Source of the DNA: Corynebacterium nuruki S6-4
Lineage (GTDB): Bacteria; Actinomycetota; Actinomycetes; Mycobacteriales; Mycobacteriaceae
Assembly (NCBI RefSeq): GCF_007970465.1
Contig: NZ_CP042429.1
Span: 434,001 to 498,000 of the forward strand
Length of the DNA stretch: 64,000 nucleotides
Direction: 5' to 3'
Part shown: piece by piece, positions 16,146-46,590 of the stretch
Layout of the letters: each line of letters begins with the position of its first letter
Position numbering within the stretch: position 1 is the stretch's first letter
Program-made: the position numbers and the translations under genes
Notes under the pieces: model-generated
What the model saw: the letters and a program-made list of their open reading frames with translations, nothing else
Database searches by the model: none
What the model was told of the DNA's origin: nothing

Positions 16146-16256
16146 CCCGATGACCGTGGAACGAACCGACGGGTCGATATTTCTGTCCTCAGGCGGCACC
16201 TGGGTTCGTGATCCCGACATCCGCAGGAGCCGACCGGCCCCCGGTTCGTAAAACCG
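16146..16256 (+). repeat. Dispersed intergenic repeat, copy A
   Basis: Lies between the convergent ends of dapF and the next gene. It begins GGAACGAACCGAC, continues to ACCTGGGTTCGTGATCCC, and ends with a CGGTT/AACCG stem (16242-16256). The order of these boxes and most bases match copies B, C and D. CCCGATGGC-like 9 bp units precede it. Confidence 0.8.
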
Positions 16257-16273
16257 ACTCCCGGGACGTGCAG

Positions 16274-17077
16274 CTAGCTGCAGCCGCAGCTGCCCGAACT
16301 GCACCCGTCACCGCAGCCGCCCGAGCAGGCCGCCGGATCGGTGGCCGTGGCGGTGAACTGCACCTCGCCGGCGAGGATGCTGCCCGGCTCCACCGTGACA
16401 GCCCCGTCGGACCCGTCAGCCCCGTCGGCCCCTGCCGTCGCCGACAGGACGACGGTGAAGTCGAAGGGTGCCTGGATCCGGCACACCCAGAAGGGCTGGC
16501 CGGTCAGTGCGGTCGTCCGTCGTTCCGCCTCGACGACCTCGAGGGCGACGGTGGCGGCGGCGTGCGGGGCGACACCACCGGAGTTCAGGTCCGCCGCACC
16601 GCGGGAGTCGACCACACCCACCCGCAGGACGCCGGCCCGGGCGGCCTCATCCCGGCCGGCGTACACGGCGAGGTCCGCGGCCAGGGCGGTGAGCTGCACC
16701 GGCTGGTAGGACAGTTCGCCCGACTCGGCGAGCAGGGCTCCCTGGGCGACGGTGGCGGTGAGCGTGGCGAGCACCGGGGCGTCCTGCGCACCGATCTGCA
16801 GCAGGGGCGTGTCGGCGACGATGTCGAGGACCCCGACGATGTCGTTGACCATCGACAGGTGGGCGGTGGTGCCCACCCCACCGCTGAAACTGGCGAACGA
16901 ACCGTAGGGCGGTGCGGCGAGGATGACGAGGCGGGCGCCGCTGGGATCGTCGTACTGGAGGACCTGGCCGTCCTCGACTTCACCGGTGACGCGCAGGGCC
17001 CCGGAGCCGTAGGCGGCCTCCAGGGCGTCCTGCCAACGGAGGAAATCGAGGCCGACGCTTCTGAGTTCCGGAATCAT
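16274..17077 (-). CDS. Conserved corynebacterial hypothetical protein with Cys-rich tail
   Basis: 267 residues, no signal peptide or membrane segment, and no recognised domain. The body is rich in Ala, Val and Gly, with motifs such as [17 protein letters not shown] and [14 protein letters not shown]. The last 17 residues hold five Cys and many Gly ([16 protein letters not shown]), which could bind metal. A gene in this place between dapF and hflX is usual in Corynebacterium. The start ATG lies 7 nt after a TAGACT -10 box. The function is unknown. Confidence 0.7.
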
Positions 17078-17084
17078 GCCCCGT

Positions 17085-17090
17085 AGTCTA
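17085..17090 (-). promoter_or_regulatory. -10 box of the Cys-tail hypothetical gene (leaderless)
   Basis: TAGACT on the minus strand, 7 nt before the ATG at 17077. Confidence 0.5.
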
Positions 17091-17175
17091 GTCCCGGTCG
17101 CCCGCTGCAGCCGTGTCCGGTGGCGCCGGACGCCGATGGCACCGGAACCGCCGGACCGTGGAAAGATGGTGGGTG

Positions 17176-18606
<1,431 letters not shown>

Positions 18607-18627
18607 GCGCCCTGCGGAGGGCCGGTT

Positions 18628-18633
18628 TAGGAT
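18628..18633 (+). promoter_or_regulatory. -10 box of the NCS2 permease gene (leaderless)
   Basis: TAGGAT lies 7 nt before the ATG at 18641. Confidence 0.55.
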
Positions 18634-18640
18634 CATCCGC

Positions 18641-20008
18641 ATGACATCTCACGAGCGAGAATCCGCGACCACCGGTGCGCGGCGGGGCTGGGGCTGGTCC
18701 CTCCACGGTGACGGCCGGCACGTCCGACCCGGTGCCGTCGTCGCCCCCGACGAACGGCTGAGCTGGCCCCGTACCGTCGGCATCGGCATGCAGCACGTCA
18801 TCGCCATGTTCGGGTCGACCCTGCTGGTCCCCACCATCACAGGTTTCCCGGTCAACACGACCCTGCTGTTCTCCGGGCTGGGCACACTGATCTTCCTGCT
18901 GGCCACCCGGAACCGGGTGCCGTCGTATCTCGGCAGTTCCTTCGCCTTCATCGCCCCGCTGACGGCGTCCCAGGCCGACGGATTCCCCGCCCAGCTCGGC
19001 GGCATCGTCGTCGTCGGCGTGGTGCTCTTCGTCATCGGTCTGATCGTCAAGGCGGCGGGGCGTCGTGTCATCGACGCCGTCATGCCGCCGGCGGTGACCG
19101 GCGCCATCGTCGCGATGATCGGCCTGAACCTCGCCCCCAGTGCGGCGGAGAACTTCGGGACGCAGCCGCTGGTCGCCGCCGTGACCCTCGCCGCGGTCCT
19201 GCTGTTCACCCTGGCCGGCCGAGGCATGGTCGGCCGCCTCGGCATCCTGTTCGGTGTCGTCGTCGGCTGGCTGTTCGCCGTGGCGACCGGGAACCTCGCC
19301 GACGGCGCCGGGGACACGATCCGGGAGGCGTCCTGGATCGGCCTGCCGCACTTCGACACCCCGGAGTTCCAGCTCAACGCGATCCTGCTGACCCTCCCGG
19401 TCATCGTCGTCCTCATCGCCGAGAACGTCGGCCACGTGAAGGCCGTGTCCGGGATGACGGGCCGCGATCTCGACGACGAGCAGGGGCCGGCACTGATGGC
19501 GGACGGTGTGTCCACCGCCCTCGCCGGCATGTTCGGTGGTTCGGGCACGACCACCTACGCGGAGAACATCGGTGTGATGGCCGCGACCCGGGTGTACTCC
19601 ACCGCCGCCTACTGGGTGGCCGGTGTCACCGCGGCGGCCCTCGCCTTCGTCCCGAAGTTCGGGGCCGTGATCCAGACGATCCCGGTCGGCGTCCTCGGCG
19701 GCGCGGCGATGGTGCTCTACGGCATGATCGGGCTGCTGGGCATCCGCATCTGGGCGGAGAACGGGGTGAACCTGGCGCACCCGCTGAACCTGTCGACGGC
19801 GGCGGTCGCGCTCATCGCCGGGATCGGCAACCTCACCCTGAGCTTCGGCGACCTGACCCTGGAGGGGATCGCCTGGGGTGCCGTCGGCATGATCATCGGC
19901 TACCCGCTGCTGAAGTGGATCTACGAGCATGTCGGGGAGGGGCGCGAACCCCTGGTCCGGACCTACCTCACACCGCACATGACCCGGGACGGGGTCCGGG
20001 AGAAGTAG
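18641..20008 (+). CDS. NCS2 family nucleobase permease, probably uracil
   Basis: 455 residues with 12 or more hydrophobic segments. The NCS2 signatures are present: TVGIGMQHVIAMFG near residue 47, AENVGHVKAVSGMTGRD, and FGGSGTTTYAENIGV. The last fits the uracil branch (UraA-like) better than xanthine or urate carriers. C. glutamicum has a uracil permease gene after hflX. Substrate is inferred. The N terminus carries about 45 soluble residues rich in Arg and Gly. Confidence 0.85.
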   Translation: MTSHERESATTGARRGWGWSLHGDGRHVRPGAVVAPDERLSWPRTVGIGMQHVIAMFGSTLLVPTITGFPVNTTLLFSGLGTLIFLLATRNRVPSYLGSSFAFIAPLTASQADGFPAQLGGIVVVGVVLFVIGLIVKAAGRRVIDAVMPPAVTGAIVAMIGLNLAPSAAENFGTQPLVAAVTLAAVLLFTLAGRGMVGRLGILFGVVVGWLFAVATGNLADGAGDTIREASWIGLPHFDTPEFQLNAILLTLPVIVVLIAENVGHVKAVSGMTGRDLDDEQGPALMADGVSTALAGMFGGSGTTTYAENIGVMAATRVYSTAAYWVAGVTAAALAFVPKFGAVIQTIPVGVLGGAAMVLYGMIGLLGIRIWAENGVNLAHPLNLSTAAVALIAGIGNLTLSFGDLTLEGIAWGAVGMIIGYPLLKWIYEHVGEGREPLVRTYLTPHMTRDGVREK

Positions 20009-20019
20009 CTGTCCCGCCC

Positions 20020-20038
20020 GGACGCCCGCCCGGCGTCC
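20020..20038. terminator. Hairpin between convergent permease and HPr genes
   Basis: GGACGCC and GGCGTCC arms with a 5 nt loop lie between stops at 20008 and 20050, and may end transcription from both sides. Confidence 0.45.
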
Positions 20039-20049
20039 AGTTCGTCGTG

Positions 20050-20316
20050 TTATTCGTCGTCGAGGTTCTTCTCGACGAGGGCGGCGATGGCCTCGACGGC
20101 GTCCGCGTTGTCGGAGCTGACGGTCACCTGGTCACCGTGCTCGGCACCCAGGGCCATGATCATCAGCGAGGAGGAGGCGTCCGACGGCTCCTCGTCGTCG
20201 CCGACGAGGGCGAGCAGGATCTCGTCGTCATAGGCGGCCGCAGCCTCGGAGATGACGGTCGCGGGGCGGGCGTGGAGGCCGACGGTGGAACCGACGGTGA
20301 CGGTCTTCGAAGCCAT
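20050..20316 (-). CDS. ptsH: Phosphocarrier protein HPr
   Basis: Passes phosphate from enzyme I to sugar-specific EII proteins; 88 residues. The phosphorylated His15 lies in GLHARPAT. The segment SSSLMIMALGAEHGD corresponds to the HPr regulatory-serine region. ATG at 20316 has AAAGGA upstream. It lies next to the sugR-like repressor and ptsI, forming the general PTS locus as in C. glutamicum. A TACGCT -10-like box is at 20402-20407. Confidence 0.95.
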   Translation of the reverse strand: MASKTVTVGSTVGLHARPATVISEAAAAYDDEILLALVGDDEEPSDASSSLMIMALGAEHGDQVTVSSDNADAVEAIAALVEKNLDDE

Positions 20317-20436
20317 GGCAGAAATCCTTTTCGTGGGGGAGTCCGTCGCGGAGCCGGACGGTCCGGGGATCCGGCGACGGGTGGTCGGGTCTGACGGCCC
20401 CAGCGTAGCGGAGCGGCGTCCGGTCGTGCACCGGCC

Positions 20437-21216
20437 TCAGTTACCGAGGACGGCGATGCCGGCGTCCCGGAACGAATCCAGGTAGCGGTCGGGGGCACCG
20501 TCGTCGGTGACGATGACGTCGACCTCGTCGACGGTGGCGAAGCTCACCAGGTAGTCCCGCCCGAATTTCGTCGAGTCGCACATCGCCACGACCATCGCCG
20601 CATTGGCGATCATGGCCCGCTTCACCGCGGCCTCCTGGGCGTCCGTCGTGGACAGGCCGTGTTCCAGTGACAGGGCGTTGGTGCCGATGAAGGCGACCTC
20701 GGCATGCTGCACGGCGAGGGCGCGCAACGTCGTGTCACCGATGACCGCCTGGGTGTTGGGGCGGATCCTGCCGCCGAGCAGCTCGACCTTCTCGATGCCG
20801 GCGGCGCCGAGCCGGACGGCGATCGGGAGGCAGTTGGTGAGGAACGAGACCTCCGGGCTGACCCGCGAGGGATCCTCGGCGATGGCGTCGGCGAGCATGG
20901 CGGTCGTCGAGCCGGCGTCGAGGAAGACGAGGCCGGCGTCCGGCAGCAGTCCGACGGCGGCGCGGCCGATGCTGATCTTCGCCGCCGTGGACGTCGAACT
21001 CCGGACGTCGAGGGGGGTCTGGCGCGTCTGGTAGTCGTTGCTGGGGACGGCCCCGCCGTGGACCCGGTGCAGGGCACCGTCGTCGTCGAGGACGGTGAGG
21101 TCCCGGCGGATGGTCTCCGGGGTGACGTTGAAACGCTCCGCGAGTTCGACGACGGTGACCCGGCCGTTCACGGCGGTGAGTGAGGCGATCTGCCGGCGAC
21201 GTTCTTCAGAATTCAC
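20437..21216 (-). CDS. sugR: DeoR-family transcriptional repressor, SugR-like
   Basis: 259 residues. N-terminal helix-turn-helix (VVELAERFNVTPETIRRDL) and a C-terminal sugar-phosphate-sensing DeoR domain (VFLDAGSTTAMLAD). In C. glutamicum SugR represses pts genes and glycolytic genes. The GTG at 21216 is preferred to an ATG at 21225 because TAGGAT lies exactly 7 nt before it and because the resulting start (then NSEERRRQIASL) aligns with the start of SugR. Position beside ptsH and ptsI supports the assignment. Confidence 0.85.
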   Translation of the reverse strand: MNSEERRRQIASLTAVNGRVTVVELAERFNVTPETIRRDLTVLDDDGALHRVHGGAVPSNDYQTRQTPLDVRSSTSTAAKISIGRAAVGLLPDAGLVFLDAGSTTAMLADAIAEDPSRVSPEVSFLTNCLPIAVRLGAAGIEKVELLGGRIRPNTQAVIGDTTLRALAVQHAEVAFIGTNALSLEHGLSTTDAQEAAVKRAMIANAAMVVAMCDSTKFGRDYLVSFATVDEVDVIVTDDGAPDRYLDSFRDAGIAVLGN

Positions 21217-21223
21217 ACCCCTC

Positions 21224-21229
21224 ATCCTA
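21224..21229 (-). promoter_or_regulatory. -10 box of sugR (leaderless)
   Basis: TAGGAT on the minus strand, 7 nt before the GTG at 21216. It contains the alternative upstream ATG, which would then not be transcribed whole. Confidence 0.55.
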
Positions 21230-21230
21230 T

Positions 21231-21288
21231 GGGGTGGGGGTGGTCAAGGGTGGGGGATGAGGGGGTGAGGGCACCCGCCGGGTGGGGG
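21231..21288 (+). other. G-run cluster between sugR and ptsI
   Basis: Eight runs of three to five G, with short gaps, lie in the divergent sugR-ptsI region. Four or more closely spaced runs satisfy the usual G-quadruplex pattern. Whether it folds or affects either promoter is unknown. Confidence 0.5.
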
Positions 21289-21391
21289 TAGTGTGGGGCG
21301 CGATAACGAACCGCGCGACACTCTGTCGTCCCTGTCACCAGGGGTGGGACGCCCCACCCCGGGGCAGCGGCGCAGATTTCTGGAGGCCACT

Positions 21392-23125
21392 GTGACCACG
21401 TCAGATCCCGTCCACGATGCTGATTCCGCCACTGAAGAGGTCGGTGTGCCGGCGCTGCTGAGGGGCAAGCCGGTGGTCCCGGGGGCGGTCACTGCCCCGG
21501 TGACCTGGGTGACCGCCCGGCCGGCGCTGCCCGGACCGGACGCGACGGTGCCCGAGGACCGGCGGGACGCCGAATTCGCCGCCTTCACCGCCGCCGTGGA
21601 CGCCGTCGCGGACCGGCTGTCCGGGCGCGCGGAGACCGTGGACGGGCACGCCCGGCAGGTCCTCGAGGCGACGGTGGCCATCGCCCGCGACCGTGCCTGG
21701 GCGAAGAAGGTGAAGAAGTCGGTCGCCGGGGGACAGGCCGCCGACTATGCGGTCCGGCAGGCCACCGACGACTTCGTCGCCATGTTCGTCAAGGCGGGCG
21801 GGGTGATGGCGGACCGGGTGACCGACCTGCGGGACGTGCGGGACCGGGTGATCGCCGAACTGCACGGTGAGCCGGAGCCGGGCGTCCCGGTGGTCGACGC
21901 CCCGCATGTGCTGTTCGCCGACGATCTCGCACCGGCGGACACCGCCACCCTCGACCCGTCCCTGATCGTGGCGGTCGTCACCGAGAAGGGCGGGGCGACG
22001 AGCCACACCGCCATCATCGCCCGACAGCTCAACATCCCGTGCGTGGTCGCGGTCGGCGCGGATCTGCGGGCCATCCCGGCGGACACCCCCGTACTCGTCG
22101 ACGCGTCGGCCGGCACGGTGGAGACCGGTGTGCCGGCGGATGAGGCACAGCGCCGGGTCGCCGAGGCGGCGGACCGGGCGGCGCGGATCAGCAGCTGGAC
22201 CGGTCCCTGTGCGACCGCTGACGGTCACCGGGTTCAGTTGCTGGCGAATGTGCAGGACGGCGCGACGGCACGGCAGGCCGCCGCCTCCGTGGCGGAGGGG
22301 GTCGGCCTGTTCCGCACCGAGCTGTGCTTCCTCAGTGAGACGAGTGAACCCTCGGTGGAGGACCAGGCGGCGCGGTATGCGGAGGTGTTCGCCGCGTTCC
22401 CGGAGGGGAAGGTGGTGGTCCGCACCCTCGACGCCGGGTCGGACAAGCCGGTGCCGTTCGTCAACGCCGAGGACGAGGAGAACCCGGCCCTCGGTGTCCG
22501 TGGACTGCGGATCGCCCGGGGGAATCAGGAGCTGCTGGAACGTCAGTTGGACGGTATCGCTCTGGCCCTGTCGCAGACGGAGCGCCGTGGCCCGGACGCG
22601 CAGGCGTGGGTGATGGCACCGATGGTGGCGACGGTGCATGAGGCGGCGTGGTTCGCCGAGCTGTGCCATGCCCGGGGGCTCACCGCCGGCGCGATGATCG
22701 AGGTGCCGGCGGCGGCGCTGCTGGCGGAGAAGATGATGCGCCACCTGGATTTCGTCTCGATCGGGACCAATGACCTGACCCAGTACACGATGGCGGCGGA
22801 CCGGCTGTCGGCGTCGCTGGCCTATCTCACGGATCCGTGGCAGCCGGCTGTGCTGCGGCTGGTGCACACCACCTGCCGGGCGGGTTCCGCGGCGAAGACC
22901 GCGGTGGGCGTGTGCGGCGAGGCTGCCGCGGACCCGCTGCTGGCCTGTGTACTCACCGGTCTCGGGGTGACGTCCCTGTCGGCGGCGACGCCCGCACTCG
23001 CAGCGGTCGGTACCCAGCTCGGTGAGGTCGATTTCGTCACATGCCGCGACATGGCCGCCGCCGCACTCGACGCCGACGGCGCGGAGGAGGCCCGGATCGC
23101 GGCCGCCGCGGTCATCGGTCTCTAG
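21392..23125 (+). CDS. ptsI: PTS enzyme I (phosphoenolpyruvate-protein phosphotransferase)
   Basis: Starts the PTS chain by transferring phosphate from PEP to HPr; 577 residues. N-terminal HPr-binding domain, phospho-histidine site GGATSHTAIIAR, and a C-terminal TIM-barrel with FRTELCF, GSDKPVPF and FVSIGTNDLTQYTMAADR. GTG at 21392 has TGGAGG 5 nt upstream; an earlier in-frame start would add 33 residues unlike the family. Divergent from sugR across a G-rich region. Confidence 0.95.
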   Translation: MTTSDPVHDADSATEEVGVPALLRGKPVVPGAVTAPVTWVTARPALPGPDATVPEDRRDAEFAAFTAAVDAVADRLSGRAETVDGHARQVLEATVAIARDRAWAKKVKKSVAGGQAADYAVRQATDDFVAMFVKAGGVMADRVTDLRDVRDRVIAELHGEPEPGVPVVDAPHVLFADDLAPADTATLDPSLIVAVVTEKGGATSHTAIIARQLNIPCVVAVGADLRAIPADTPVLVDASAGTVETGVPADEAQRRVAEAADRAARISSWTGPCATADGHRVQLLANVQDGATARQAAASVAEGVGLFRTELCFLSETSEPSVEDQAARYAEVFAAFPEGKVVVRTLDAGSDKPVPFVNAEDEENPALGVRGLRIARGNQELLERQLDGIALALSQTERRGPDAQAWVMAPMVATVHEAAWFAELCHARGLTAGAMIEVPAAALLAEKMMRHLDFVSIGTNDLTQYTMAADRLSASLAYLTDPWQPAVLRLVHTTCRAGSAAKTAVGVCGEAAADPLLACVLTGLGVTSLSAATPALAAVGTQLGEVDFVTCRDMAAAALDADGAEEARIAAAAVIGL

Positions 23126-23247
23126 CTTCCGCCCGCTGGGTCCCTGTGGCCCCCGGTACTGCTGGGCCCGGTACTTCCGTGGCCTTGTGATCCTGCGACC
23201 CTGCGCTCCTGCGCTCGACCCGCACGTCCAGGGGCGGTTGCGGACGT

Positions 23248-23395
23248 CGCCGGTGTCGGTTTTGAGAACCCAGGGGTCGGTCGCATCCTGGCCCGGTCGG
23301 GTTCGCGAGCCCAGGTGCTGTCCTGGGGCAGGAAACTCGACCCGTCGGTTCGTTCCGCGGACATGAACCTGTCGGTTCGTTCCGCGGACATCGGG
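23248..23395 (-). repeat. Dispersed intergenic repeat, copy B, in the 375 bp ptsI-lexA gap
   Basis: The gap 23126-23500 between convergent ptsI and lexA has no supported gene. It holds a repeat on the minus strand with the same order of boxes as copies A and D. Its first box is duplicated: the same 21 nt occurs at 23344-23364 and 23371-23391, and again in copy C. The remainder is simple GC-rich sequence with GGTCGGG and TCCTGCG units. Confidence 0.85.
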
Positions 23396-23500
23396 TTCGA
23401 AGCCGGGATCAGGGTCGGGCTCAGGGTCGGGCCCGGGGGTCCTTTCCCGCGTCATCCCGGTGGTCGCGACCGGGTGCCACGACATCCCCGGGACGGCCAC

Positions 23501-24277
23501 CTAGATCTTGCGGAGCACGGCGACGACCCGGCCGAGGATCTCGGCGTCGTCGCCGCGGATCGGCTCGTACAGTGCATTGTGGGGGATGAGCCAGGCGTGG
23601 CCGGCGTCCCGCTGGAACTCCTTGACCGTGGCTTCGCCGTCGATCATGGCGGCCACGAACTCGCCGAGCTCGGCGGTGTTCTGGGACCGGACCACCACCC
23701 AGTCACCGTTGTAGATGCCGGCATCCTGCATGGAGTTGCCGACGACCTGGAGGAGGAAGAGCTCGCCACCGCCGACGAGCTCCTGCGGCAGGGGGAAGTG
23801 GGCCTCGACATGCTCCTCGGCGAGGATCGGGGCGCCGGCGGCGATCTGGCCGACGACGGGGACGTAGGCCGGGGTCGGCATTGAGTCGTCGACGGCCGCG
23901 GCGGACATCGGTTTACGGCCCGGTCGGGGAGCGGACGAGATGTCCTCCGGACTGCCGTCGAAGGACCGGATGTCCACGGCACGGGGCTTGTTGTCCTCAC
24001 GACGGAGGTAGCCCTTCCGCTCAAGTTCCTTGAGGTGGTAGGAGACCGAGGAGGTCGAGTTCAGGCCGACCGCGTCGCAGATCTCGCGGATGCTGGGCGG
24101 GTAGCCGCTGAACCGGATCGCGTCCTTGATGACCTCGAGGATCCGTCGCTGCCGGTCGGAGAGCTTCTCCCGCCCCTGCGGATCGTCGTGGGTCCCCTTG
24201 GCGGACAGTGACCCCTTCGGCCTGCCCCGCTTGCGTCCGCCCGTGGGTGTCCCCGTCGGCTGCTGTGTGTCTGCCAT
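23501..24277 (-). CDS. lexA: SOS repressor LexA
   Basis: Represses DNA-damage genes until RecA triggers its self-cleavage; 258 residues. N-terminal winged helix at about 38-100 after a basic extension (RKRGRPKGS). Cleavage site A147-G148, catalytic S182 (GNSMQDAG) and K219 (ATVKEF). ATG at 24277 with GGAGTGAGG upstream. Divergent from the divS-like gene; SOS boxes lie in the shared region. A TAGGGT -10-like box is at 24344-24349. The 3' end faces ptsI across repeat copy B. Confidence 0.96.
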
Positions 24278-31410: not shown

Positions 31411-32445
31411 ATGGCCAATAAAGAGTACCGCCCCACGGTGTCGCAGCTCCGGACCTTCGTCACCATCGCCGAGAACGGTCACTTCGGCGCCGCAGCCCAG
31501 CGGCTCGGCATCTCCCAGCCGTCGCTGTCCCAGGCGCTCGCCGCGCTGGAGCAGGGACTGGGCGTCCAGCTCATCGAACGGTCCACCCGCAAGGTGATCG
31601 TGACCCCCGTCGGACAGACGCTGCTGCCGTACGCGCAGGCCACGCTGGACAGCATTGATGCGTTCGTCAGCCACGCCCGGGGCGCCCGCGGCGGTCTCGT
31701 CGGGCCGATGAACATCGGGATGATCCCGACCGTCGCCCCGTTCATCCTCCCGGCACTGCTGCGCCAGCTCAGTGAGACCGCCCCCTCGCTGCAGCCCCGG
31801 ATCGTCGAGGAGAAGACGGCGAACCTCGTCGATTCGCTGCGCCAGGGCGGGTTGGACGCCGCCGTGGTCGCCAGCCCGGTGAACTCCTCGGCGATCCGGT
31901 CGACCGACATCTACACCGAGGAATTCGTCCTCGTCCTCCCCGAGGGACACCCGTTCGGGGGGCGCCGCGACATCCGCGTCGACGAACTCGAGGGACTCGA
32001 TCTCCTCCTGCTCGACGACGGACACTGTCTCCGGGACCAGGTGCTCGACCTGTGTCGTGCCGTCCCCGGCAGCCGGGATCCGTCCCGCGCCGTCACCCGG
32101 GCCGCGAGCCTGTCGACGATCGTCCAGTGCGTCGTCGGCGGACTCGGCAGTACCCTCGTCCCGCTCTCGGCCGTCGCCGCCGAATGCGACCGGCCGGGGC
32201 TGACCCTGGCGACCTTCGCCGGGGGAGCGGCGACGGCGGGACGGACCGTGTCGTTGAGCTACCGGTCGAGCTCGAACCGTGCCGACGACTTCGCGGTCAT
32301 CACCGAGGCGGTGTCCCGGGCCTACCAGGATTCGGTCGTGGATTCCCGCCGGGTCCTCGAGGAGAAGATCGCCGCCGCCGGCAGCGGCGCTGAGGCAGCT
32401 GAGTCAGCCGACGCCCGCGGGCTGAGCACCGCCGGGCGCAGCTAG
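31411..32445 (+). CDS. oxyR: LysR-family peroxide regulator OxyR
   Basis: 344 residues, with an N-terminal LysR helix-turn-helix (HFGAAAQRLGISQPSLSQALAAL) and a C-terminal sensor domain. The OxyR-type cysteine pair is visible in DDGHCLRDQVLDLCR. Divergent from ahpC. ATG at 31411 lies 7 nt after a -10 box; an upstream in-frame GTG is within that box and not favoured. The tail adds an Ala-rich extension of about 30 residues. The stop is followed by CTGCAC and repeat copy C. Confidence 0.94.
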   Translation: MANKEYRPTVSQLRTFVTIAENGHFGAAAQRLGISQPSLSQALAALEQGLGVQLIERSTRKVIVTPVGQTLLPYAQATLDSIDAFVSHARGARGGLVGPMNIGMIPTVAPFILPALLRQLSETAPSLQPRIVEEKTANLVDSLRQGGLDAAVVASPVNSSAIRSTDIYTEEFVLVLPEGHPFGGRRDIRVDELEGLDLLLLDDGHCLRDQVLDLCRAVPGSRDPSRAVTRAASLSTIVQCVVGGLGSTLVPLSAVAAECDRPGLTLATFAGGAATAGRTVSLSYRSSSNRADDFAVITEAVSRAYQDSVVDSRRVLEEKIAAAGSGAEAAESADARGLSTAGRS

Positions 32446-32468
32446 CTGCACTCCCCGGGGGGTCAGTG

Positions 32469-32575
32469 GAACGAACCCAGGTGCTGCTCCGGGGCGGATT
32501 TTTTGACCTGTCGATTCGCAATGTCGACATGGCGGCCGGGCCGTCGACCTGTCGGTTCGTTCCGCGGACATCGGG
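32469..32575 (-). repeat. Dispersed intergenic repeat, copy C
   Basis: Lies between convergent oxyR and the DUF3516 helicase gene (gap 32446-32668). It contains a third exact copy (32551-32571) of the 21 nt seen twice in copy B, a diverged second unit, and the ACCTGGGTTCG box, where it is cut short. Both flanking stop codons are followed by related CTGCAC/CCGCAC plus CCCCGGGG sequences in inverted orientation. Confidence 0.75.
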
Positions 32576-32668
32576 GGCCGGCGTCGGGGGTCAGAGACGG
32601 GGTCGCCGGAGGTCTTCAGTGGCGTCACCCCGGTGGAGGCGACCGACAACGCCCCCGGGGAGGTGCGG

Positions 32669-35251
32669 CTAGCCCCGCACCACCCGCAGGCTCGACAGGC
32701 GGACCTCGCCGGCTGCATCGGTGGCGTCGAGGTCCACGACGCCCTCAAAGGCCCAGCCGTGGTCCTTCTCCGGATCATCGAGAATCTGCCGGACGGCCCA
32801 GGACCGGCCGTTCTCCGTGATGAGGATGAGCTCCGGCGACCGCGCCCCGGCGTCCACCCCGAGGTCGTCGTACTCGTCGAAGTAGGCGTCCATTTCGTCG
32901 GGCCAGTCCGGGGCGTCCTCCAGATAGCTGTCGAGTTCCGCCAGATCCTCCTCGCGCTCGAAGGCGAACAGCTCGATGTGCCGGAAGAAGTGGTTGCGTA
33001 CCATCCGGCGCAGCGCGCGGGGATTGGCGCTGAGCAGGGACGGATCGGTGACGCCGAAGGCGTGCTCGGCGACCTGCTCGTCGGTGACCGGTGCGTCCGG
33101 GTCCGACATGGCGGTCCACTCGTCGACCAGGGAGGAGTCCACCTGGCGGATGAGCTCGCCGAGCCACACGAGGATGTCCTCGAGTTCCTCCGTGCGGTGT
33201 TCGGGCGGCACGCTGTGGGTCAACGTCCGCCACGCGTCGGTGAGGTACCGCAGCACGACCCCCTCGGAGCGGGCCAGGGAGTACGTCGACACGAGGTCGG
33301 AGAAGGTCATGGCCTTCTCGATCATCTCCCGCACCACCGACTTCGGGGACAGCCGGAAGTCGCGGGCCCACGGGTTGGATTCGCAGAACGTGTCGTAGGC
33401 CTGCTCCAGTTCCTCCTCCAGCGGCTTGTCCCAGGTGACCTCCTCGATCAGCGCCATCCGCTCGGTGTAGTCCACGCCCTCCGCCTTCAGTGCGGCGATC
33501 TCCTCACCGCGGCGGGCCCGCTGCTGGGCCGACAGGATCTGGTTCGGGTCGTCGAGGATCGCCTCAAAGGTGCTGATGATGTCGAGCGTGTAGGTGTCCG
33601 ACTCCGGGTCCAGCAGATCCAGCGCCGCGAGTGCGAACGGGGACAGCGGCTGGTTGAGGGCGAAGTCGCGCTGCAGTTCGCGGGTCAGCCGCGCGTCCTT
33701 GCCGGAGGGGGTGTCCGCCGGGACTTCCTCGACGATGCCGGCCTGCAGCAGTCCCCGGTACAGGGCGATGGTGGTGAGGATCTCCCTGTTCTGCCGGGTC
33801 CGTGTGTCATGGTTGCCGCGCAGCAGCCCCTTGAGCGCCGCATAGGTCCAGCCGTCGCGGGCGATGACGTTGATGAGCATGGCGTTGCTCATCCGGAACT
33901 GGCTGACCAGCTCCTCGGGCTCGGCGGTGGTCAACCGGTCGAAGGTCGACTCGGACCAGGTCGCCCGCCCTTCCGGGGCGTGCTTCTTGCGCAGCTTCTT
34001 CAGCTTCTTCGGGTCCTGGCCGGCCTTCTGCCGCAGCCGGTAGTTCTCGATCTCGTGGTCGGGTGCCTCGACGACGACGGTGCCCTCCGTGTCGTAGCCG
34101 GCGCGTCCGGCCCGTCCGGCGATCTGGTGGAACTCACGGGACTTCAGGACGCGGTGGCGGACCCCGTCGTACTTCGCCAGACCTGTCATGAGGACGGTGC
34201 GGATGGGCACGTTGATGCCCACGCCGAGCGTGTCGGTCCCGCAGATCACGGTGAGCAGTCCCTGCTGGGCGAGTTTCTCGACGAGCCGCCGGTACTTCGG
34301 CAGCATGCCGGCGTGGTGGACGCCGATACCGCGGCGCAGGAGCCCGGACAGGGTCTTGCCGAAAGAAGAGGTGAAGCGGAACGACCCGATGGCCTCGGCG
34401 ATCTCCGCTTTCCGGGTCTTTGGGTCCAGGCCGGCCTTCGTCAGGATGTCGATGCTGGTCAGTGACTGGGCACGTTCGACGGCGTCCCGCTGGGAGAAGT
34501 GGACGACGTAGATCGGGGCCTTGCCGTCGGACAGCAGGTCCTCGACCGTCTCGTGCACCGGGGTGTAGACGTAGTGGAAGTCGAGCGGGACCGGCCGGGT
34601 GGACCCGGCGACGGTCGTCGAGGTGCGGCCGGTACGGCGTTCGAGGTCGTCCTCGAGCCAGCCGGTGGATCCCAGGGTTGCGCTCATGAGGAGGAACTGG
34701 GCCCGGTGGAGCTCGAGCAGCGGCACCTGCCAGGCCCAGCCGCGGTCCGGTTCGGAGTAGTAGTGGAACTCGTCCATGACGACCTGGTCGATGTCGGCGG
34801 CGGCACCGTCGCGCAGGGCGATGTTCGCCACGATCTCGGCGGTCGCGCAGATGATCGGGGCGCGGCCGTTCACGGTCGCGTCCCCGGTCATCATCCCGAC
34901 ATTCGCCGGGCCGAAGATTTCGCAGAGGGCGAAGAATTTCTCGCTGACCAGTGCCTTGATCGGCGCGGTGTAGAACGTCCGCTTCCCGTGGGCGAGGGCG
35001 ATGAAGTGCGCGGCGGTGGCGACCAGCGACTTGCCGGAGCCGGTGGGGGTGGCGAGGATGACGTTGTCCCCGGCGGCGAGTGCGGTGGCGGCCTCCTCCT
35101 GCGCCGGGTACAGGGAGATCCCGCGGTCCCGGGCCCAGGCGAGGAAGGAGTCGAGGACGGCGTCGTCAAGCAGTCCGGACGGCACCTCCGCGAGGTCAGG
35201 GAGGAGATCGGACAGGGTCTGACGGGGGGCGCCGGTCTCGGGAGTGTTCAC
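32669..35251 (-). CDS. DEAD/DEAH-box RNA helicase with DUF3516 domain
   Basis: 860 residues. Superfamily 2 helicase core with Walker A ATPTGSGKS at 67-75, DEFH box (VVMDEFHYY), SAT motif (LLMSATLG) and motif VI QIAGRAGRAGYD. The long C-terminal half fits DUF3516, as in actinobacterial Ski2-like helicases. RNA turnover is the likely role, from the family only. The GTG start lies 7 nt after TACGCT. Convergent with oxyR. Confidence 0.88.
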   Translation of the reverse strand: MNTPETGAPRQTLSDLLPDLAEVPSGLLDDAVLDSFLAWARDRGISLYPAQEEAATALAAGDNVILATPTGSGKSLVATAAHFIALAHGKRTFYTAPIKALVSEKFFALCEIFGPANVGMMTGDATVNGRAPIICATAEIVANIALRDGAAADIDQVVMDEFHYYSEPDRGWAWQVPLLELHRAQFLLMSATLGSTGWLEDDLERRTGRTSTTVAGSTRPVPLDFHYVYTPVHETVEDLLSDGKAPIYVVHFSQRDAVERAQSLTSIDILTKAGLDPKTRKAEIAEAIGSFRFTSSFGKTLSGLLRRGIGVHHAGMLPKYRRLVEKLAQQGLLTVICGTDTLGVGINVPIRTVLMTGLAKYDGVRHRVLKSREFHQIAGRAGRAGYDTEGTVVVEAPDHEIENYRLRQKAGQDPKKLKKLRKKHAPEGRATWSESTFDRLTTAEPEELVSQFRMSNAMLINVIARDGWTYAALKGLLRGNHDTRTRQNREILTTIALYRGLLQAGIVEEVPADTPSGKDARLTRELQRDFALNQPLSPFALAALDLLDPESDTYTLDIISTFEAILDDPNQILSAQQRARRGEEIAALKAEGVDYTERMALIEEVTWDKPLEEELEQAYDTFCESNPWARDFRLSPKSVVREMIEKAMTFSDLVSTYSLARSEGVVLRYLTDAWRTLTHSVPPEHRTEELEDILVWLGELIRQVDSSLVDEWTAMSDPDAPVTDEQVAEHAFGVTDPSLLSANPRALRRMVRNHFFRHIELFAFEREEDLAELDSYLEDAPDWPDEMDAYFDEYDDLGVDAGARSPELILITENGRSWAVRQILDDPEKDHGWAFEGVVDLDATDAAGEVRLSSLRVVRG

Positions 35252-40955: not shown

Positions 40956-40997
40956 ACGGGACCTCCTGGATAGGTTGTCGGACGCTCTGACAGTGAC

Positions 40998-41024: not shown

Positions 41025-41160
41025 GGTCCGGTCCGCGGCGGTGGCCGCCGGGCCGTCGGAACGCCCCTCCATCGGTGGGGTGCGCTGGGTAAATGCCACC
41101 ATTGTAAGTTATTGTCCCCGGCAGTGTTCCGGGAGGGAAACTACACCTGTAAGGGGGTGG

Positions 41161-41664
41161 TCAGGCCTCTACGAGGACAGTGTACGGACCGTCATTCACC
41201 GAACTCACCGACATCTGCGCACCGAATACGCCGGTCTCGACCCGCAGTCCCCGTTCCCGCAGGTCGGCGACGATCCGGTCGATCACCGGTTCCGCCACAT
41301 CCCCCGGGGCCGCCGCGGACCAGGACGGGCGGCGTCCCCGCGCGGTCGCCCCCAGCAGGGTGAACTGGCTGACGACGAGGACCTCGGCCCCGTTGTCGAC
41401 CGCACCGGCGTCCCGCCGCGCGTCGGTGTCCGGGTCCCCCTGCCCGTCCGACCCCTCCGGGCCGGCGGCGGGACGCAGGATCCGGAGCTCCGCGATCTTC
41501 CGGGCGACAGTGCGCCAGGCATCGGGATCGTCGTCGCGGCCCACCCCGATGAGGGCGAGCAGGGCGCCGCGGCCGGCCCCGTCGCGGTTGCCGTCGACGG
41601 CGCCGACGACCTCCCCGTCGACGGTGACGGAGGCCTCGGTCACGGTGGAGATGACCGCCTTCAC
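41161..41664 (-). CDS. dtd: D-aminoacyl-tRNA deacylase
   Basis: Removes D-amino acids wrongly attached to tRNA; 167 residues. The conserved SQFTL and the C-terminal NDGPYT (usual form NxGPVT) are present, so Val is replaced by Tyr in the second motif. A Gly/Asp-rich insert lies at about residues 66-85. ATG overlaps the methyltransferase stop by 4 nt, giving the order DUF3099-methyltransferase-dtd. Confidence 0.92.
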
Positions 41665-43265
41665 CGGTCCACCTCCGGCCCCTCGGGATCATCGAACCCG
41701 TCGGCGTCGCCCTGATCATCGAGATCCCCGGGGATGAGCAGCCCGTGCCGGACGAGGTCGACGATGAGCGGGACCAGGGCGTCGCAGAACTCGGCGGCGT
41801 CCCGGTCCGTCACCGCGCAGTAGAGTTCCGCGGTGTCCCGCAGCGACAGTCCTGACGGGTTGAGCCCGGCGATGACCGCCGACAGCGGCTCGTCGATCTC
41901 GTGGCTGAACCCGGGGCCGTCGGTGCGGGTGAGACGGGTGACCACCTCACGGAACCCGGCACCGGTGGTGCGGTCGGGCAGTTCCACGGTCTCCCGGGCG
42001 ACGGTCGGCCGCACCCGGTAGGTGCTGTCGAGGATCCCGTCGCCGTCCCGGTCGGCCAACCAGCCGGCACGCCGGAACCAGTCGGTCACCTCATCGCCGA
42101 AGAAACCGAGGTCGGCGGTGGTGATCTCCTCGAATGTGACCTCGCTCGGGCCGGTGATCCGCTGCAGATGGACGAAGCCCATCCCGATCCGTGCCACGTC
42201 CGCGTCGGCGAGCACCTCCAGCCAGGCCGCGGTCCGGTCCCGGCCGTCCGTCGTGCGCACATCGACTGATTCATCGGTCAACCAGGTCCGGACGTAGTCG
42301 GCGGGGCTGACCTCGTCGCGCTGGATGACCCACGCGCGGACCCCCGTGTCCGGCAGCCAGCCGGCGACCCGGGACGCCGGGGACTCCGACAGGCCCGTCG
42401 CCCAGGCACCGAGCAGATGAGCGGTACCGCCGGGGGACAGGTGTCCGGCGGCGCCGCGGACGACGAGGGCACTTGCGCCGTCGAGTGCGATCCCCGAGTC
42501 CCGGTAGACGTGGCCGACGTCGCCGGGGCCGACGACGAACGGCGGATTGGACACGATGCGGTCGAAGGTCTCCCCGGCCACCGGGTCGAACCAGCTGCCG
42601 GCCCGCCAGTCGACGGTCCGGTCCCGGGCGCTCTGCGCCGAGGCCCGGGCATAGGCGAGGGCACGCTCGTGGATGTCGGTGGCGACGGTCTCCCGGGCGG
42701 GCAGGATCAGACTCAGCACGCCCGATCCGGTCCCGAGGTCGAGCAGTCGGTCAGCGGGGGTGGACGGGATCTGCCGGAGCAGGGTCAACGGCGCCTGCCC
42801 GACGCCGGGCACATGGTCGGGTCCGGGGATCACGGCCTCGGAGGAGGCGTCCGGATCAGAGACGACGAGCACTTCCGCACCCCCGTCCTCCCGGGGGCTG
42901 ACCGGCCGGATGTCGACGGTGCTCCGCACGGCCGTCGTGTCCGGTGCCACCGGGGTCAGGACGCCCGCCCCGCGCAACCGGTCGATCAGGTCACCACCGA
43001 GAAGGTCGGTGAGAGCGCGGGCGTCAGCGGGTTCGCGGAGGAAGAACGCGCGCACGATCAGCCGGTCGCGGTCGGGGGCTGTAGACCGGTCGAGGAACCA
43101 CACCGCTGCCCCCGGGTTGCCGGACAGGGCCTGGCGGAAGCCGTCACGGCCGAGGGTGCGCACGATCAGCGGGGTGCCGTAGCCGAGGGCGCTGAGGGCG
43201 GTGACGAGGCCGCCCAGCGCGTCGACGTCAGGGGTGGCAGGGGCAGTGGGGGCGTCGGTGCTCAC
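41661..43265 (-). CDS. Class I SAM-dependent methyltransferase (DUF7059-type N terminus)
   Basis: 534 residues. An N-terminal domain of about 150 residues precedes a methyltransferase core with [12 protein letters not shown] (174-185) and NPPF at 240-243. NPPF indicates an N-methyltransferase for Gln, Ade or Gua, as in PrmC or RsmC-like enzymes. A further C-terminal 200 residues have no assigned role. Substrate unknown. Overlaps dtd and DUF3099 genes by 4 nt each, so the three are coupled. Confidence 0.82.
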
Positions 43266-43804
43266 GGGGTCTCCTCGGTGTCGGTCTCGGTGTCAGGGTC
43301 GGTCCCGGGGGCGGTCCCACGGTCAGTCACGGTGTCCGGGGTGTCCGGCGGGTCGTCGGCATCGATGATCCCGGGCCCGTCGTCGAGCTCCCGCGGCGCC
43401 GCCTCCTGCTGTGCCTCCAACTGCTGGCGGGCAATTCTCGCCCGGTTCTCCCGGACGAGTGCGGGCTTGTAGACCTTCGGCTCACCCTTCTCCCGCCCGT
43501 CGCCGGTCTCATTGGCCAGCAGTACCGCGATCCACGGCAGCGGCAGGGAGACCACCGCCACGCAGGCGGCGATGACCGGCTGGTGGGCGAGGCCGTAGAC
43601 CGCCACCGCGATGATGAACAGGGGGATGCGGGCCAGCTGCAGGGTCGCGTAGAGGTGCCGTCGGTGCCGCCAGCCGGCGAGCCGGGAACGCCGGGCGGTG
43701 GTGATCAGGGAAACGGGCCTGTCGCCGTGCGGCGTCCGGCGTGCGCCGACGCGACGGGTGCGGTGGCCGCGGTGTGCTGATCCGTCGTCTCCCTCATCTG
43801 CCAT
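43262..43804 (-). CDS. DUF3099 family membrane protein
   Basis: 180 residues. Two membrane segments at about residues 66-110 (LARIPLFIIAVAVYGL and VIAACVAVVSLPLPWIAVLLA) match DUF3099, preceded by VSLITTARRSRL. The C terminus is charged (ARIARQQLEAQQEA) and then Asp/Pro/Thr-rich. ATG at 43804 lies 7 nt after TACCGT and is preferred to an open frame that extends a further 58 codons upstream. First of three coupled genes. Function unknown. Confidence 0.8.
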   Translation of the reverse strand: MADEGDDGSAHRGHRTRRVGARRTPHGDRPVSLITTARRSRLAGWRHRRHLYATLQLARIPLFIIAVAVYGLAHQPVIAACVAVVSLPLPWIAVLLANETGDGREKGEPKVYKPALVRENRARIARQQLEAQQEAAPRELDDGPGIIDADDPPDTPDTVTDRGTAPGTDPDTETDTEETP

Positions 43805-43811
43805 GCCGCCC

Positions 43812-43817
43812 ACGGTA
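43812..43817 (-). promoter_or_regulatory. -10 box of the DUF3099 gene (leaderless)
   Basis: TACCGT on the minus strand, 7 nt before the ATG at 43804. Confidence 0.4.
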
Positions 43818-43893
43818 GTCCCCCGGACCAGCGGGCATGCGGCACACCCGGCCACAGCGGCGGGCCGGGGTGGAAATGACCGGGGACGAGGGG

Positions 43894-43899
43894 CATGAT
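43894..43899 (+). promoter_or_regulatory. -10 box of the DUF3039 gene (leaderless)
   Basis: CATGAT lies 8 nt before the GTG at 43908, so the TTG at 43899 is unlikely to be the start. Confidence 0.45.
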
Positions 43900-43907
43900 T
43901 GTCTACC

Positions 43908-44150
43908 GTGACTACTCCCGGAACAACAACGATTGAACGCCCGGATGTCCGGACCGACGAGAAGACCTCCGATGACACACCGAAGTTCTTCCACTACGTC
44001 AGGAAGGACCAGATCGTGGATTCCGCGGTGAACGGCAGGATGGTCGTCGCGCTGTGCGGCGAGACCTTCCCCGTCACCAAGCAGGCCAAGCCGGGATCCC
44101 CCGTGTGCCCCGACTGCGAGAGGATTTACCAGGGGCTCAGCAAGAAGTGA
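43908..44150 (+). CDS. DUF3039 family small protein
   Basis: 80 residues of unknown function. The DUF3039 pattern is present: FFHYVRKDQIVDSAVNG, ALCGETFPV and PVCPDCERIYQGL. Three Cys (one single and one CxxC) suggest a zinc site, probably completed by the His of FFHY. The gene ends in GTGA with the following helicase, so translation of the two is coupled. The same pair is found together in other actinobacteria. Confidence 0.82.
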   Translation: MTTPGTTTIERPDVRTDEKTSDDTPKFFHYVRKDQIVDSAVNGRMVVALCGETFPVTKQAKPGSPVCPDCERIYQGLSKK

Positions 44151-45907
44151 GTCAGAGCCTGTCCACCGCAGCACCGGATGCCCTGTACACCGGCCTCCGC
44201 ACCTGGCAGCGAGAGGCGCTGCAGCGCTATCTCGAGACCGGTCCGCGTGACTACCTGGCGGTGGCGACGCCGGGCGCCGGGAAGACGACCTTCGCGCTGA
44301 CCGTCGCCCGCGCCCTGCTCGACAACCGCACCGTCGAGCGGATCGTCATCGTCGTACCGACCGAGCACCTCAAGTCGCAGTGGTCGACGGCCGCCGCCCG
44401 GATGGGGATGGCGATCGACGCGGACTTCACCAACTCCTCCCCGGTGAACCCCTCGTACCACGGTGTGGCGGTGACCTACGCCCAGGTCGGGATGAAGCCG
44501 ACCAAGCACTACCAGGTCGCCACGGCGCGCAAGACCCTGGTCATCCTCGACGAGATCCACCACGCCGGCGACGCCAAGAGCTGGGGCGACGGTGTCCGCT
44601 TCGCTTACGAGCAGGCGGAACGACGCCTGGCGCTGACCGGTACACCGTTCCGGTCAGATGACTCGGCCATCCCGTTCGTGCTCTACCGGGACATCGACGG
44701 GGCCCTGGTCTCCCAGGCCGACTACACCTACGGCTACCAGGAGGCGCTGGCAGACGGTGTGGTGCGCCCCGTCGTCTTCCTCGCCTACTCCGGTAACGCC
44801 CGCTGGCGGGACAGTGCCGGCGAGGAGTACGAGGCGCGCCTCGGCGAACCGCTCAATGCCGAGCAGACCGCCCGGGCGTGGCGGACCGCCCTCGATCCGG
44901 CGGGGGAGTGGATCCCGGCCGTCCTCGCGGCCGCGCACACCCGGTTGATGCAGCTGCGGGAGAACATCCCGGACGCCGGTGGCCTCGTGATCGCCACCGA
45001 CACGACCACCGCCCGCGCCTACGCGAAGATCCTGGAACGGATCAGCGGCCGCCCGGTGACCGTCGTGCTCTCCGACGAGGCGGGTTCCAGCGACCGCATC
45101 AAGACCTTCTCCGACTCGACGGACTTCTGGATGGTCGCCGTCCGGATGGTCTCCGAGGGCGTCGACGTCCCGCGGCTCGCCGTGGGTGTGTACGCGACCT
45201 CGGCCTCCACCCCGCTGTTCTTCGCCCAGGCGATCGGCCGTTTCGTGCGGTCGCGCCGCAAGGGCGAGTCCGCCAGTGTGTTCCTGCCGAGTGTCCCGGT
45301 GCTGCTGGACCTCGCCTCGAAGCTGGAGCGGCAGCGCAACCACGTCCTCGGTAAGCCCGACCGGCCGAACGAGGGCTGGGACGATGAGCTGCTCGCCCAG
45401 GCCAACCGGGAGGAGAACGAGCCGGACGAGGACAAGGGCTACGAGTCGCTCGGCGCGCAGGCCGAACTCGACAGCCTGATCTTCGACGGGTCGACCTACG
45501 GCACCGCCACGATGACGGGTTCGGAGGAGGAGCAGGACTATCTCGGGCTTCCGGGGCTGCTGGACGCCGACCAGATGAAGACCCTCCTGCGCGCCCGGCA
45601 GGCCGAGCAGCTCGATCACCGGGCGAAGGAGGAGCACGCGCAGCGGGAGCGGGCGGCCAGGGAGGCGCAGGACGCCGCGGCAGGTGGACACGGTGGTGCG
45701 GACACCCACCGCGACCGGGTCGCCAGTGAGGAGATCCCGGCACTGCGCAAGAAGCTCAACGCACTCGTGTCGGCGAAGTCCGCGCGGACCGGCCGGCCAC
45801 ACGGTGCGATCCACAATGACGCCCGCCGCAACTGCGGCGGTCCGCCCACCGCACTGTGCACCGCGCAGCAGCTCCGCGACCGGATCGCGTATCTGCGCGA
45901 CTGGTGA
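44147..45907 (+). CDS. DEAD/DEAH-box helicase coupled to DUF3039
   Basis: 586 residues. SF2 helicase core: Walker A ATPGAGKT at 40-47, DEIHH box (VILDEIHHAGDA), LTGTPFRSD motif III, and a C-terminal motif VI-like FAQAIGRFVRS. This resembles restriction-type (ResIII) translocases more than RNA helicases. The C terminus has a basic/acidic coiled coil (about 485-540) and RRNCGGPP near the end. GTG start by the 4 nt overlap. Substrate unknown. Confidence 0.85.
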   Translation: MSQSLSTAAPDALYTGLRTWQREALQRYLETGPRDYLAVATPGAGKTTFALTVARALLDNRTVERIVIVVPTEHLKSQWSTAAARMGMAIDADFTNSSPVNPSYHGVAVTYAQVGMKPTKHYQVATARKTLVILDEIHHAGDAKSWGDGVRFAYEQAERRLALTGTPFRSDDSAIPFVLYRDIDGALVSQADYTYGYQEALADGVVRPVVFLAYSGNARWRDSAGEEYEARLGEPLNAEQTARAWRTALDPAGEWIPAVLAAAHTRLMQLRENIPDAGGLVIATDTTTARAYAKILERISGRPVTVVLSDEAGSSDRIKTFSDSTDFWMVAVRMVSEGVDVPRLAVGVYATSASTPLFFAQAIGRFVRSRRKGESASVFLPSVPVLLDLASKLERQRNHVLGKPDRPNEGWDDELLAQANREENEPDEDKGYESLGAQAELDSLIFDGSTYGTATMTGSEEEQDYLGLPGLLDADQMKTLLRARQAEQLDHRAKEEHAQRERAAREAQDAAAGGHGGADTHRDRVASEEIPALRKKLNALVSAKSARTGRPHGAIHNDARRNCGGPPTALCTAQQLRDRIAYLRDW

Positions 45908-46024
45908 GAAGCGCGGACGGGCGGGTCCGCCGGTCCCGTTGGTCCGTCAGACCGTCAGTCCGTTAGTCTTGGCCGGACCGTCCGGTGCCGGCACCGGTAT
46001 CCACCACGAGAGGCAGTGACCCTG

Positions 46025-46408
46025 ATGCCCCCGAAGCCCCCCTCGCACCCGACGTCCCCGTCTCCCTCGTCGCCTTCTGCCGCCGTTCCCGGGAAGCGGC
46101 CACCGCGCCGGCAGAGCAGGCTCGGGCTTGTCGCCCTCATCTTCGCTGTCCTGGCGTTGCCCGCCGCCCTGTCCCCGGTTCTGGGGATCATCGTGGCGGT
46201 CATCGTCCTCATCGTCGGGCTGGTGGCGCTCATCCGCGCGACCAGGGTCAGCGAAATCAGTACGGGTCAGCCGGTGGTGGCGGTCGTGGTCGCCATTGTG
46301 GCGCTCATCCTGGCCAGTGTCGTGACCTCGGCGGCCGATGACCGGGTGCAGGACTGCGGTGCCCGGACCTACGACGATGCCCGGGAGTGCCTGCAGGGCG
46401 ACAACTGA
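46025..46408 (+). CDS. Small membrane protein, DUF4190-like
   Basis: 127 residues: Pro/Ser-rich cytoplasmic N terminus, two to three hydrophobic segments (about 34-65 and 75-98), and a short external tail with two Cys (DCGARTYDDARECLQ). The layout LGLVALIFAVLAL...GLVALIRA fits the DUF4190 type. ATG at 46025 is chosen; a GTG at 46016 is too close to the ribosome site. A TAGTCT -10-like box is at 45964-45969, after repeated GTCCGTCAG units. Confidence 0.65.
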   Translation: MPPKPPSHPTSPSPSSPSAAVPGKRPPRRQSRLGLVALIFAVLALPAALSPVLGIIVAVIVLIVGLVALIRATRVSEISTGQPVVAVVVAIVALILASVVTSAADDRVQDCGARTYDDARECLQGDN

Positions 46409-46469
46409 CCCCGGGCACCCACCCCCGATGTCCCGATACCCTCCCCCGAAGCCCCGGTGCCCCAACCCC

Positions 46470-46590
46470 CGATGCCCGCGGAACGAACCGACAGGCGGAT
46501 TTTCCTGCCTCTGAGCGGCACCTGGGTTCGTGAACCCGACCACCCCGGGCCGCGACCGACCCCTGGGTTCGTGAACCCGGCATCCGCGGG
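46470..46590 (+). repeat. Dispersed intergenic repeat, copy D
   Basis: Lies between convergent ends of the small membrane protein gene and sigA (gap 46409-46610). It carries GGAACGAACCGAC, then ACCTGGGTTCGTGAACCC, then a second GGGTTCGTGAACCC. Both 14 nt palindromes (46524-46537 and 46565-46578) are perfect 6 bp stems. CCCCGATG units precede it, as in copy A. Confidence 0.85.

Follow-up and report, generated by a model that had tools for sequence, protein, structure and literature searches.

TnRErm46 of Rhodococcus equi, in the available part of its published description, is a 6.9-kb IS481-family transposon that carries cargo and its own transposase, generates NCTAGN target duplications and keeps the TAG stop codons at its targets (PMC6794481). 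Here we describe a gene-less repeat from a 64,000-nucleotide stretch (positions 434001-498000, the window) of the Corynebacterium nuruki S6-4 chromosome (single contig, 3,173,955 bases). The repeat, together with its putative resident IS481-family partner, has in common with TnRErm46/ISRe46, as far as that account goes, IS481-family ends starting TGT, NCTAGN duplications and a CTAG target, and in both systems the TAG of the duplication ends the target gene as well as the transposase frame (PMC6794481). It differs from TnRErm46 in measuring 157-373 bp in the window copies, in occupying about 60 places and in having a palindromic core (PMC6794481).

Bacterial miniature inverted-repeat transposable elements (MITEs) such as MITEAba12, in the portion of the report consulted, are likewise short and non-autonomous, and their terminal inverted repeats and target duplications correspond to those of an insertion sequence (IS) present in the genome; the repeat is unlike them in its IS481-family partner, its CTAG stop-codon target and its array of units at fixed spacing (PMC6382973). 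An IS481-derived MITE was not found in the literature searched, a partial collection. Repetitive extragenic palindromic sequences (REP) and bacterial interspersed mosaic elements (BIME), from the sections of the sources consulted, share with the repeat an extragenic position, palindromes, repetition, alternating orientations and use as IS targets, whereas the repeat has no match to a REP-associated tyrosine transposase (RAYT) in the genome, has IS481-type ends and CTAG duplications, and is built of longer units (PMC2817692, PMC3733652). A REP is defined as a palindrome of 20-40 bp bearing a GTAG or CGTC tag. The IS families named as targeting REPs in the available text are IS3, IS110, IS4, IS256 and IS5 (PMC1525189). 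Here too one IS sits inside a palindromic repeat, an IS30-family element whose target is the MITE core. Based on the sequence evidence below, the repeats are very probably a MITE family moved by an IS481-family transposase.

A repeat family with IS481-type ends

The initial annotation reported four copies of the repeat in the window (A to D), seen by eye and not recognised as a named family, and no Rfam family matched the window above its gathering score. BLAST searches of the genome gave at least 46 matches with copy D and at least 47 with copy B (the best 40 of 89 and of 96 candidates scored, respectively). We then used an alignment of 35 copies (mean column identity 82%) to build R1, a sequence-only profile model with A, B and D in its training set and C outside it. 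With the best 150 of 4,061 first-look candidates scored, R1 returned at least 112 genome matches at E up to 1 and at least 66 above 20 bits, the latter 66 corresponding to 63 distinct places, or 60 once pieces split by insertions were joined. Since only the best candidates were scored in the repeat searches, the copy numbers given here are minimum values, and a genome without a match may still hold copies. A pattern for a 20-base unit, allowing 2 mismatches, matched the genome 104 times, against 1 match for the reversed control. The description of a dispersed, multi-copy, palindrome-bearing repeat was thus borne out by further copies across the genome. The four window copies were also recovered, A (16149-16261, +), B (23251-23364, -) and D (46471-46584, +) at E values of about 1e-29 to 1e-30, and C, although it had not been in the training set, in two pieces (32450-32518 and 32533-32572, -; E 1e-6 and 2e-5). 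In one gap (genome 556003-556385; L011, L014 and L023) three repeat cores lie in tandem, about 134 bp apart.

Judged from a single window protein, Corynebacterium variabile (85%), C. kalidii and C. glyciniphilum (both 83%) are among the nearest named relatives of this strain. A spaced 17-base pattern with 1 mismatch matched 53 times here and at most once in any of 241 other genomes of the genus; the single matches occurred in five genomes, two of which hold the same sequence. R1 at E 1e-5 matched no genus genome but its own among 242 (best 15 candidates per genome scored), and among 31 relatives it found its own genome and one weak match (G195, E 0.0016; best 119 candidates per genome). This match and another at a copy-D locus (L252, E 0.011) are chance-like. 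The repeat was not found in plasmid, phage or viral-contig collections, and one strict repeat pattern had no match in GTDB genomes, from which the own species was possibly left out. By these searches, the family is present at about 60 places in this chromosome, with no convincing copy among 241 other Corynebacterium genomes.

Printing of whole gaps revealed that copies start and finish next to TAG stops with a terminal inverted repeat of about 25 bp, TGTACTTCCCGGGGAGGTYGTGRAC. A search for this repeat with up to 3 mismatches found 13 sites, against 0 for the reversed control. Of these sites, 11 are no more than 300 bp from a repeat core, and the other 2, at unrelated places, mark the termini of full IS481-family copies. 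The two resident IS481-family copies are 1,108 bp long and about 99.7% identical, are flanked by perfect 6-bp duplications (ACTAGG/ACTAGG and ACTAGC/ACTAGC), and each sits at the TAG stop of the upstream gene. The likeness extends past the terminal repeat: each of 10 chosen copies has 28-39 bp of subterminal sequence in common with the left end of the IS (p 0.001 or less by mononucleotide shuffling), and in two copies the left-end match is longer, 104 bp at 82% in one and 142 bp at 73% in the other. Between their target sites the elements measure 157 bp (A), 221 bp (C) and 373 bp (B), too short for a transposase gene.

In the resident element, the coding region of the DDE transposase (about 1 kb) is divided between two frames, of 196 and 239 aa, that overlap (L141:1612-2614 and L142). 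The shorter frame corresponds to the front half of the NCBIfam IS481 family transposase and the longer one to its rear half, both below the full-length cut-off; the pieces also match Pfam LZ_Tnp_IS481 and rve_3. This two-frame arrangement is common to both copies and may be a shared frameshift or a programmed one. The second frame stops on the TAG of the right duplication, as reported for ISRe46 (PMC6794481). Related transposases occur in 20 of 241 other genomes of the genus (E up to 1e-40), related IS481 copies in the genus have TGTA-type ends, and identical NCTAGN sequences stand on both sides at no fewer than 12 of 30 IS481 loci, own included (hand count among up to 12 CTAG sites listed per locus). 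Near the second resident copy (L217:2215-2247, genome near 2637.4 kb) there is a 21-bp miniature consisting of two back-to-back terminal repeats with CTAG on each side. In another member of the genus (L215:1924-2500), an IS481-family gene is followed by at least 10 tandem repeats of about 61 bp beginning GCTAGCGCGGGGAGCAC, which resemble clustered regularly interspaced short palindromic repeats (CRISPR).

CTAG targets and gene ends

The features of the four window copies are as follows (window coordinates; target sites carry no strand).

16110-16115: A, left target duplication GTTAGC (NCTAGN with one change), holding the TAG stop of dapF (15233-16114)
16116-16272, + strand: A, whole element of 157 bp, filling the gap between dapF and the converging gene 16274-17077
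16150-16169 (genome 450150-450169), - strand: A, unit a (inverted), unit-pattern match
16201-16220 (genome 450201-450220), + strand: A, unit b, 51 bp from unit a, unit-pattern match
16273-16278: A, right target duplication GCTAGC, holding the TAG stop of the converging gene (minus strand)
23121-23126: B, TCTAGC at the TAG stop of gene 21446-23125
23127-23499, - strand: B, whole or compound element of 373 bp, with core 23251-23364 and a tandem extra unit at 23366-23392
23500-23505: B, CCTAGA at the TAG stop of the converging gene 23501-24277 (minus strand)
32441-32446: C, left target duplication GCTAGC at the TAG stop of a LysR-family gene (31411-32445)
32447-32667, - strand: C, whole element of 221 bp, with two inverted units, an AT tract and a further unit directly next to the right terminal repeat
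32668-32673: C, right target duplication GCTAGC, equal to the left one, at the TAG stop of the converging gene 32669-35251 (minus strand)
46471-46584, + strand: D, conserved core, with units 46472-46491 (-), 46523-46542 (+) and 46564-46583 (+), 51 and 41 bp apart
46610-46615: D, right target site CCTAGT at the TAG stop of a sigma-factor gene, 46611-48230 (minus strand)

The assignment of gene 15233-16114 as dapF is by Pfam. Copies A and C each take up the whole gap between two duplicated CTAG stops. The true ends of the elements lie further out than the limits first given. IS481-like subterminal sequence is present in B, where it is homologous to the left end and lies at the 23499 side, and in C at the 32667 side. 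A, B and D contain full cores. C had been taken for a copy cut short; it is instead made of the same units in a different order and has one and the same GCTAGC at either side. The left-hand gene at D ends in TGA (46406-46408), and CTAG is therefore missing on that side.

Genes were called with a codon-score finder whose training set was the window plus ten control stretches of 20 kb (264 kb together). In these 264 kb, CTAG occurs 54 times against 728 expected from base composition, 13-fold rarer, and 24 of the 54 sites are stop codons, 6 lie inside genes and 24 elsewhere. Among stops facing an element (within 300 nt) TAG accounts for 58 of 85, compared with 73 of 225 in the background (p 1.8e-8), and CTAG marks 41 of 85 element-facing gene ends, compared with 24 of 228 (p 4e-12); the background genes include the window's own element-facing genes. 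CTAG reads the same on both strands, so a single site can serve as the stop of two convergent genes. Such an arrangement is seen for the dapF pair in 2 of 28 relatives (L189 and L192), both without copy A, and in a third (L186) the genes overlap by a related stop. At the copy-D locus, 12 of 26 relatives have a sigma-factor gene that stops in CTAG, and the repeat is absent from all 27 such loci apart from the weak match in L252.

All four window copies were again found between converging genes by these independent gene calls, and the initial annotation had proposed that the repeat is confined to such gaps. In the genome it is enriched there, but not exclusive to them: the 66 hits comprise 34 convergent, 27 co-directional, 4 divergent and 1 unclassified. 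By distinct places, the figures are 33 convergent, 25 co-directional, 4 divergent and 1 unclassified of 63, against 17 convergent, 52 co-directional and 32 divergent among background gaps of at least 100 nt in the 264 kb. Convergent places are thus enriched (33/62 classified vs 17/101, p 1.6e-6) and divergent ones depleted (4/62 vs 32/101, p 1.6e-4), and the orientation of the copies found by profile search is non-random, with 4 of 65 classified hits divergent. When the background is limited to 3' ends with gaps of at least 60 nt (36 convergent, 65 co-directional), the convergent excess is modest (33 to 25, p 0.012), which indicates that the rule is nearness to gene ends and not convergence alone.

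We propose the following mechanism. The IS481 transposase would cut at CTAG and duplicate NCTAGN, and insertion at a CTAG stop would put a TAG on each side, so that both convergent proteins would be kept. Because CTAG is rare inside genes and frequent at stop codons, the element could spread without breaking genes. Landing mainly on CTAG would come about through target choice combined with loss of harmful insertions. The element itself may descend from an ancestral IS481 copy whose interior was exchanged for the palindromic core. Directly visible in the DNA are the terminal inverted repeats, the subterminal sequence in common with the IS, the duplicated target sites, the bias towards CTAG and the intact gene ends; movement of the copies by the IS481 transposase is what we infer from them. 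Accumulation of repeats at gene ends and in convergent gaps is usually read as a sign of function, and here it would have a simple mechanical reason: the transposase needs CTAG, CTAG in this GC-rich genome is largely left at stops, and the repeat would therefore pile up at gene ends. With a self-complementary stop, one insertion would spare two genes.

Several observations weigh against this scheme. Mobility is read from sequence, with neither live transposition nor population polymorphism seen, and the transposase is split over two frames in both resident copies, which makes the activity of the partner putative. The terminal repeats, scored without regard to CTAG, count on both sides. In support of the scheme, 37 lie above a 1% null, of which 10 have an exact CTAG just outside and 17 have one with at most one mismatch. 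Against it, they are recognisable on only 30 of 65 copies, with both ends on 7 and the ends of the remaining copies too decayed to recognise, and 27 of the 37 recognised ends lack an exact CTAG. Within the window only C has a perfect 6-bp duplication, as A matches at 5 of 6 positions and the outer bases of B differ, and D has no recognisable left end. At the site of A, the four relatives with the most similar DapF have a gap of 494-505 bp, not a shared stop. The core is absent from the IS481 element, and five cores lack a recognised terminal repeat, three of them close upstream of gene starts.

The unit array and other explanations

The core is an array of units of about 20 bp, arranged both inverted and direct. 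For nearest neighbours that point the same way, the distance is exactly 41 bp in 46 of 57 pairs; for those that point opposite ways, it is exactly 51 bp in 47 of 57. The five arrays without recognised ends (near 241.9, 1115.4, 1523.1, 1590.1 and 2101.1 kb) are diverged, with units a and b retaining 13-18 of 20 bases; all keep the 51-bp spacing and three of the five keep the 41-bp unit. Their identity in spacer 1 is 12, 12, 15, 17 and 13 of 31 (random mean 8.6, 95% at 13). Three lie 40-119 nt upstream of gene starts, one of these 119 nt upstream of jetA in a Wadjet operon (JetA, JetB and JetC by PADLOC; L119:1-3200, genome 1112401-1115600). The array at 2101 kb is adjoined by two repeated transposase-like genes with the same start (LIQLAWAAGNSVDYAF...; L118:1-2241). 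We also considered whether the units are copies of the inner terminal repeat of IS481; 3 of 20 local alignments gave uncorrected p values of 0.007-0.034 with chosen consensus units, and we do not claim this origin.

The retention of the 51-bp spacing in the five diverged arrays, despite changed spacers, makes a DNA-binding role possible. The core could accordingly be a functional, helically phased array of protein sites, independent of the IS481-type MITE or captured by it, with selection for binding maintaining units and spacing. This explanation, which we regard as possible but doubtful, draws on the exact 41- and 51-bp spacings and on the diverged arrays, three of them ahead of gene starts. 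Strong constraint on the units was not significant among the 35 aligned copies, where they evolve only slightly more slowly than the spacers (mean site rate 0.80 vs 1.11, p 0.069). In addition, low indel rates and common descent could preserve spacing, no binding protein is known, and the comparison of units with spacers in the diverged arrays is biased because these arrays were found through their units. The fixed spacing is therefore suggestive of protein binding and is not proof of it. A version that joins both ideas is speculative and, in our judgement, rather unlikely: the MITE would have scattered putative host-protein sites of about 20 bp, 4 and 5 helical turns apart, and some arrays, the one ahead of the Wadjet operon among them, would have been kept after decay of the ends of this stop-codon-targeting transposon as a domesticated, spacing-sensitive regulatory or chromosome-organising site in this one species. 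If the spacing does reflect binding, a gene-sparing mobile element would have turned into a scattered binding-site array, which could be tested in a single species.

The initial annotation had favoured REP/BIME-like elements or bidirectional terminators. A terminator or 3' untranslated region RNA structure, spread or kept because its hairpins end convergent transcripts, would fit the enrichment in convergent gaps, and in several relatives the gap replaced by copy D bears a long hairpin (by eye). A separate hairpin of at least 11 bp is found in 4 of 31 element-bearing convergent gaps, compared with 6 of 13 other convergent gaps (p 0.043); since element gaps are poorer in separate long hairpins, the elements may have to stand in as terminators. 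The structures themselves argue against strong built-in terminators, as stems are mostly 5-8 bp, the consensus folds only weakly (-6.55 kcal/mol across 120 columns), and single copies fold at z scores of -2.2 to -0.1 except for B (-4.1 and -3.2), which is helped by its tandem unit. Pair counts gave no sign of covariation in the three proposed hairpins (81.1% of cells are paired, the same as in shuffles, and 1 pair is changed on both sides), a scan at copy A found 0 terminator-like sites there, and 27 copies are co-directional. Taken with these results, the hairpin-poor element gaps speak against strong terminators within the element, which may instead have replaced older ones, and we consider the terminator explanation improbable. 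More improbable still is that the repeat is of the REP/BIME type, having spread through a RAYT (Y1) transposase and been retained as a site for gyrase or a nucleoid protein. The repeat is palindromic, extragenic, present in many copies and enriched near gene 3' ends, and is interrupted by an IS element as REPs often are, according to the part of that report available (PMC1525189). Against this, Y1_Tnp (PF01797) has 0 matches in the genome, in a search that was positive in 5 of 14 control genomes, and the window elements are 157-373 bp long with IS481-type terminal inverted repeats and NCTAGN duplications at CTAG targets. CTAG is also a target of IS630, and a MITE moved by an IS630/Tc1-type transposase would have a TA duplication within CTAG; this has next to no likelihood, as the matching full-length element is of the IS481 family and duplicates the six bases NCTAGN. 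Movement by an IS481-family transposase thus remains our preferred explanation of the repeat.

IS30-family insertions in the repeat

Some copies of the repeat are themselves interrupted by a 2,238-bp element encoding a 712-aa protein (NCBIfam IS30 above cut-off), which is present at four places, its copies being 99.55-99.96% identical to the reference copy. An IS110-type insertion was our first guess and was dropped for the IS30 family after the protein family match. The positions within the repeat are as follows.

L109:3028-5265: IS30-family copy inside the repeat
L120:2929-5157: IS30-family copy inside the repeat
L121:840-3077: IS30-family copy inside the repeat
L122:807-3044: IS30-family copy inside the repeat

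BLAST of 551 kb found no IS30-family copy beyond these four, all of which were found through the repeat and so do not form an unbiased census of IS30 targets. In all four cases the repeat resumes on both sides of the insertion, with 3 bp (ACC or CAG) repeated, and the sites are of the CACCTG or CAGGTG type (by eye).

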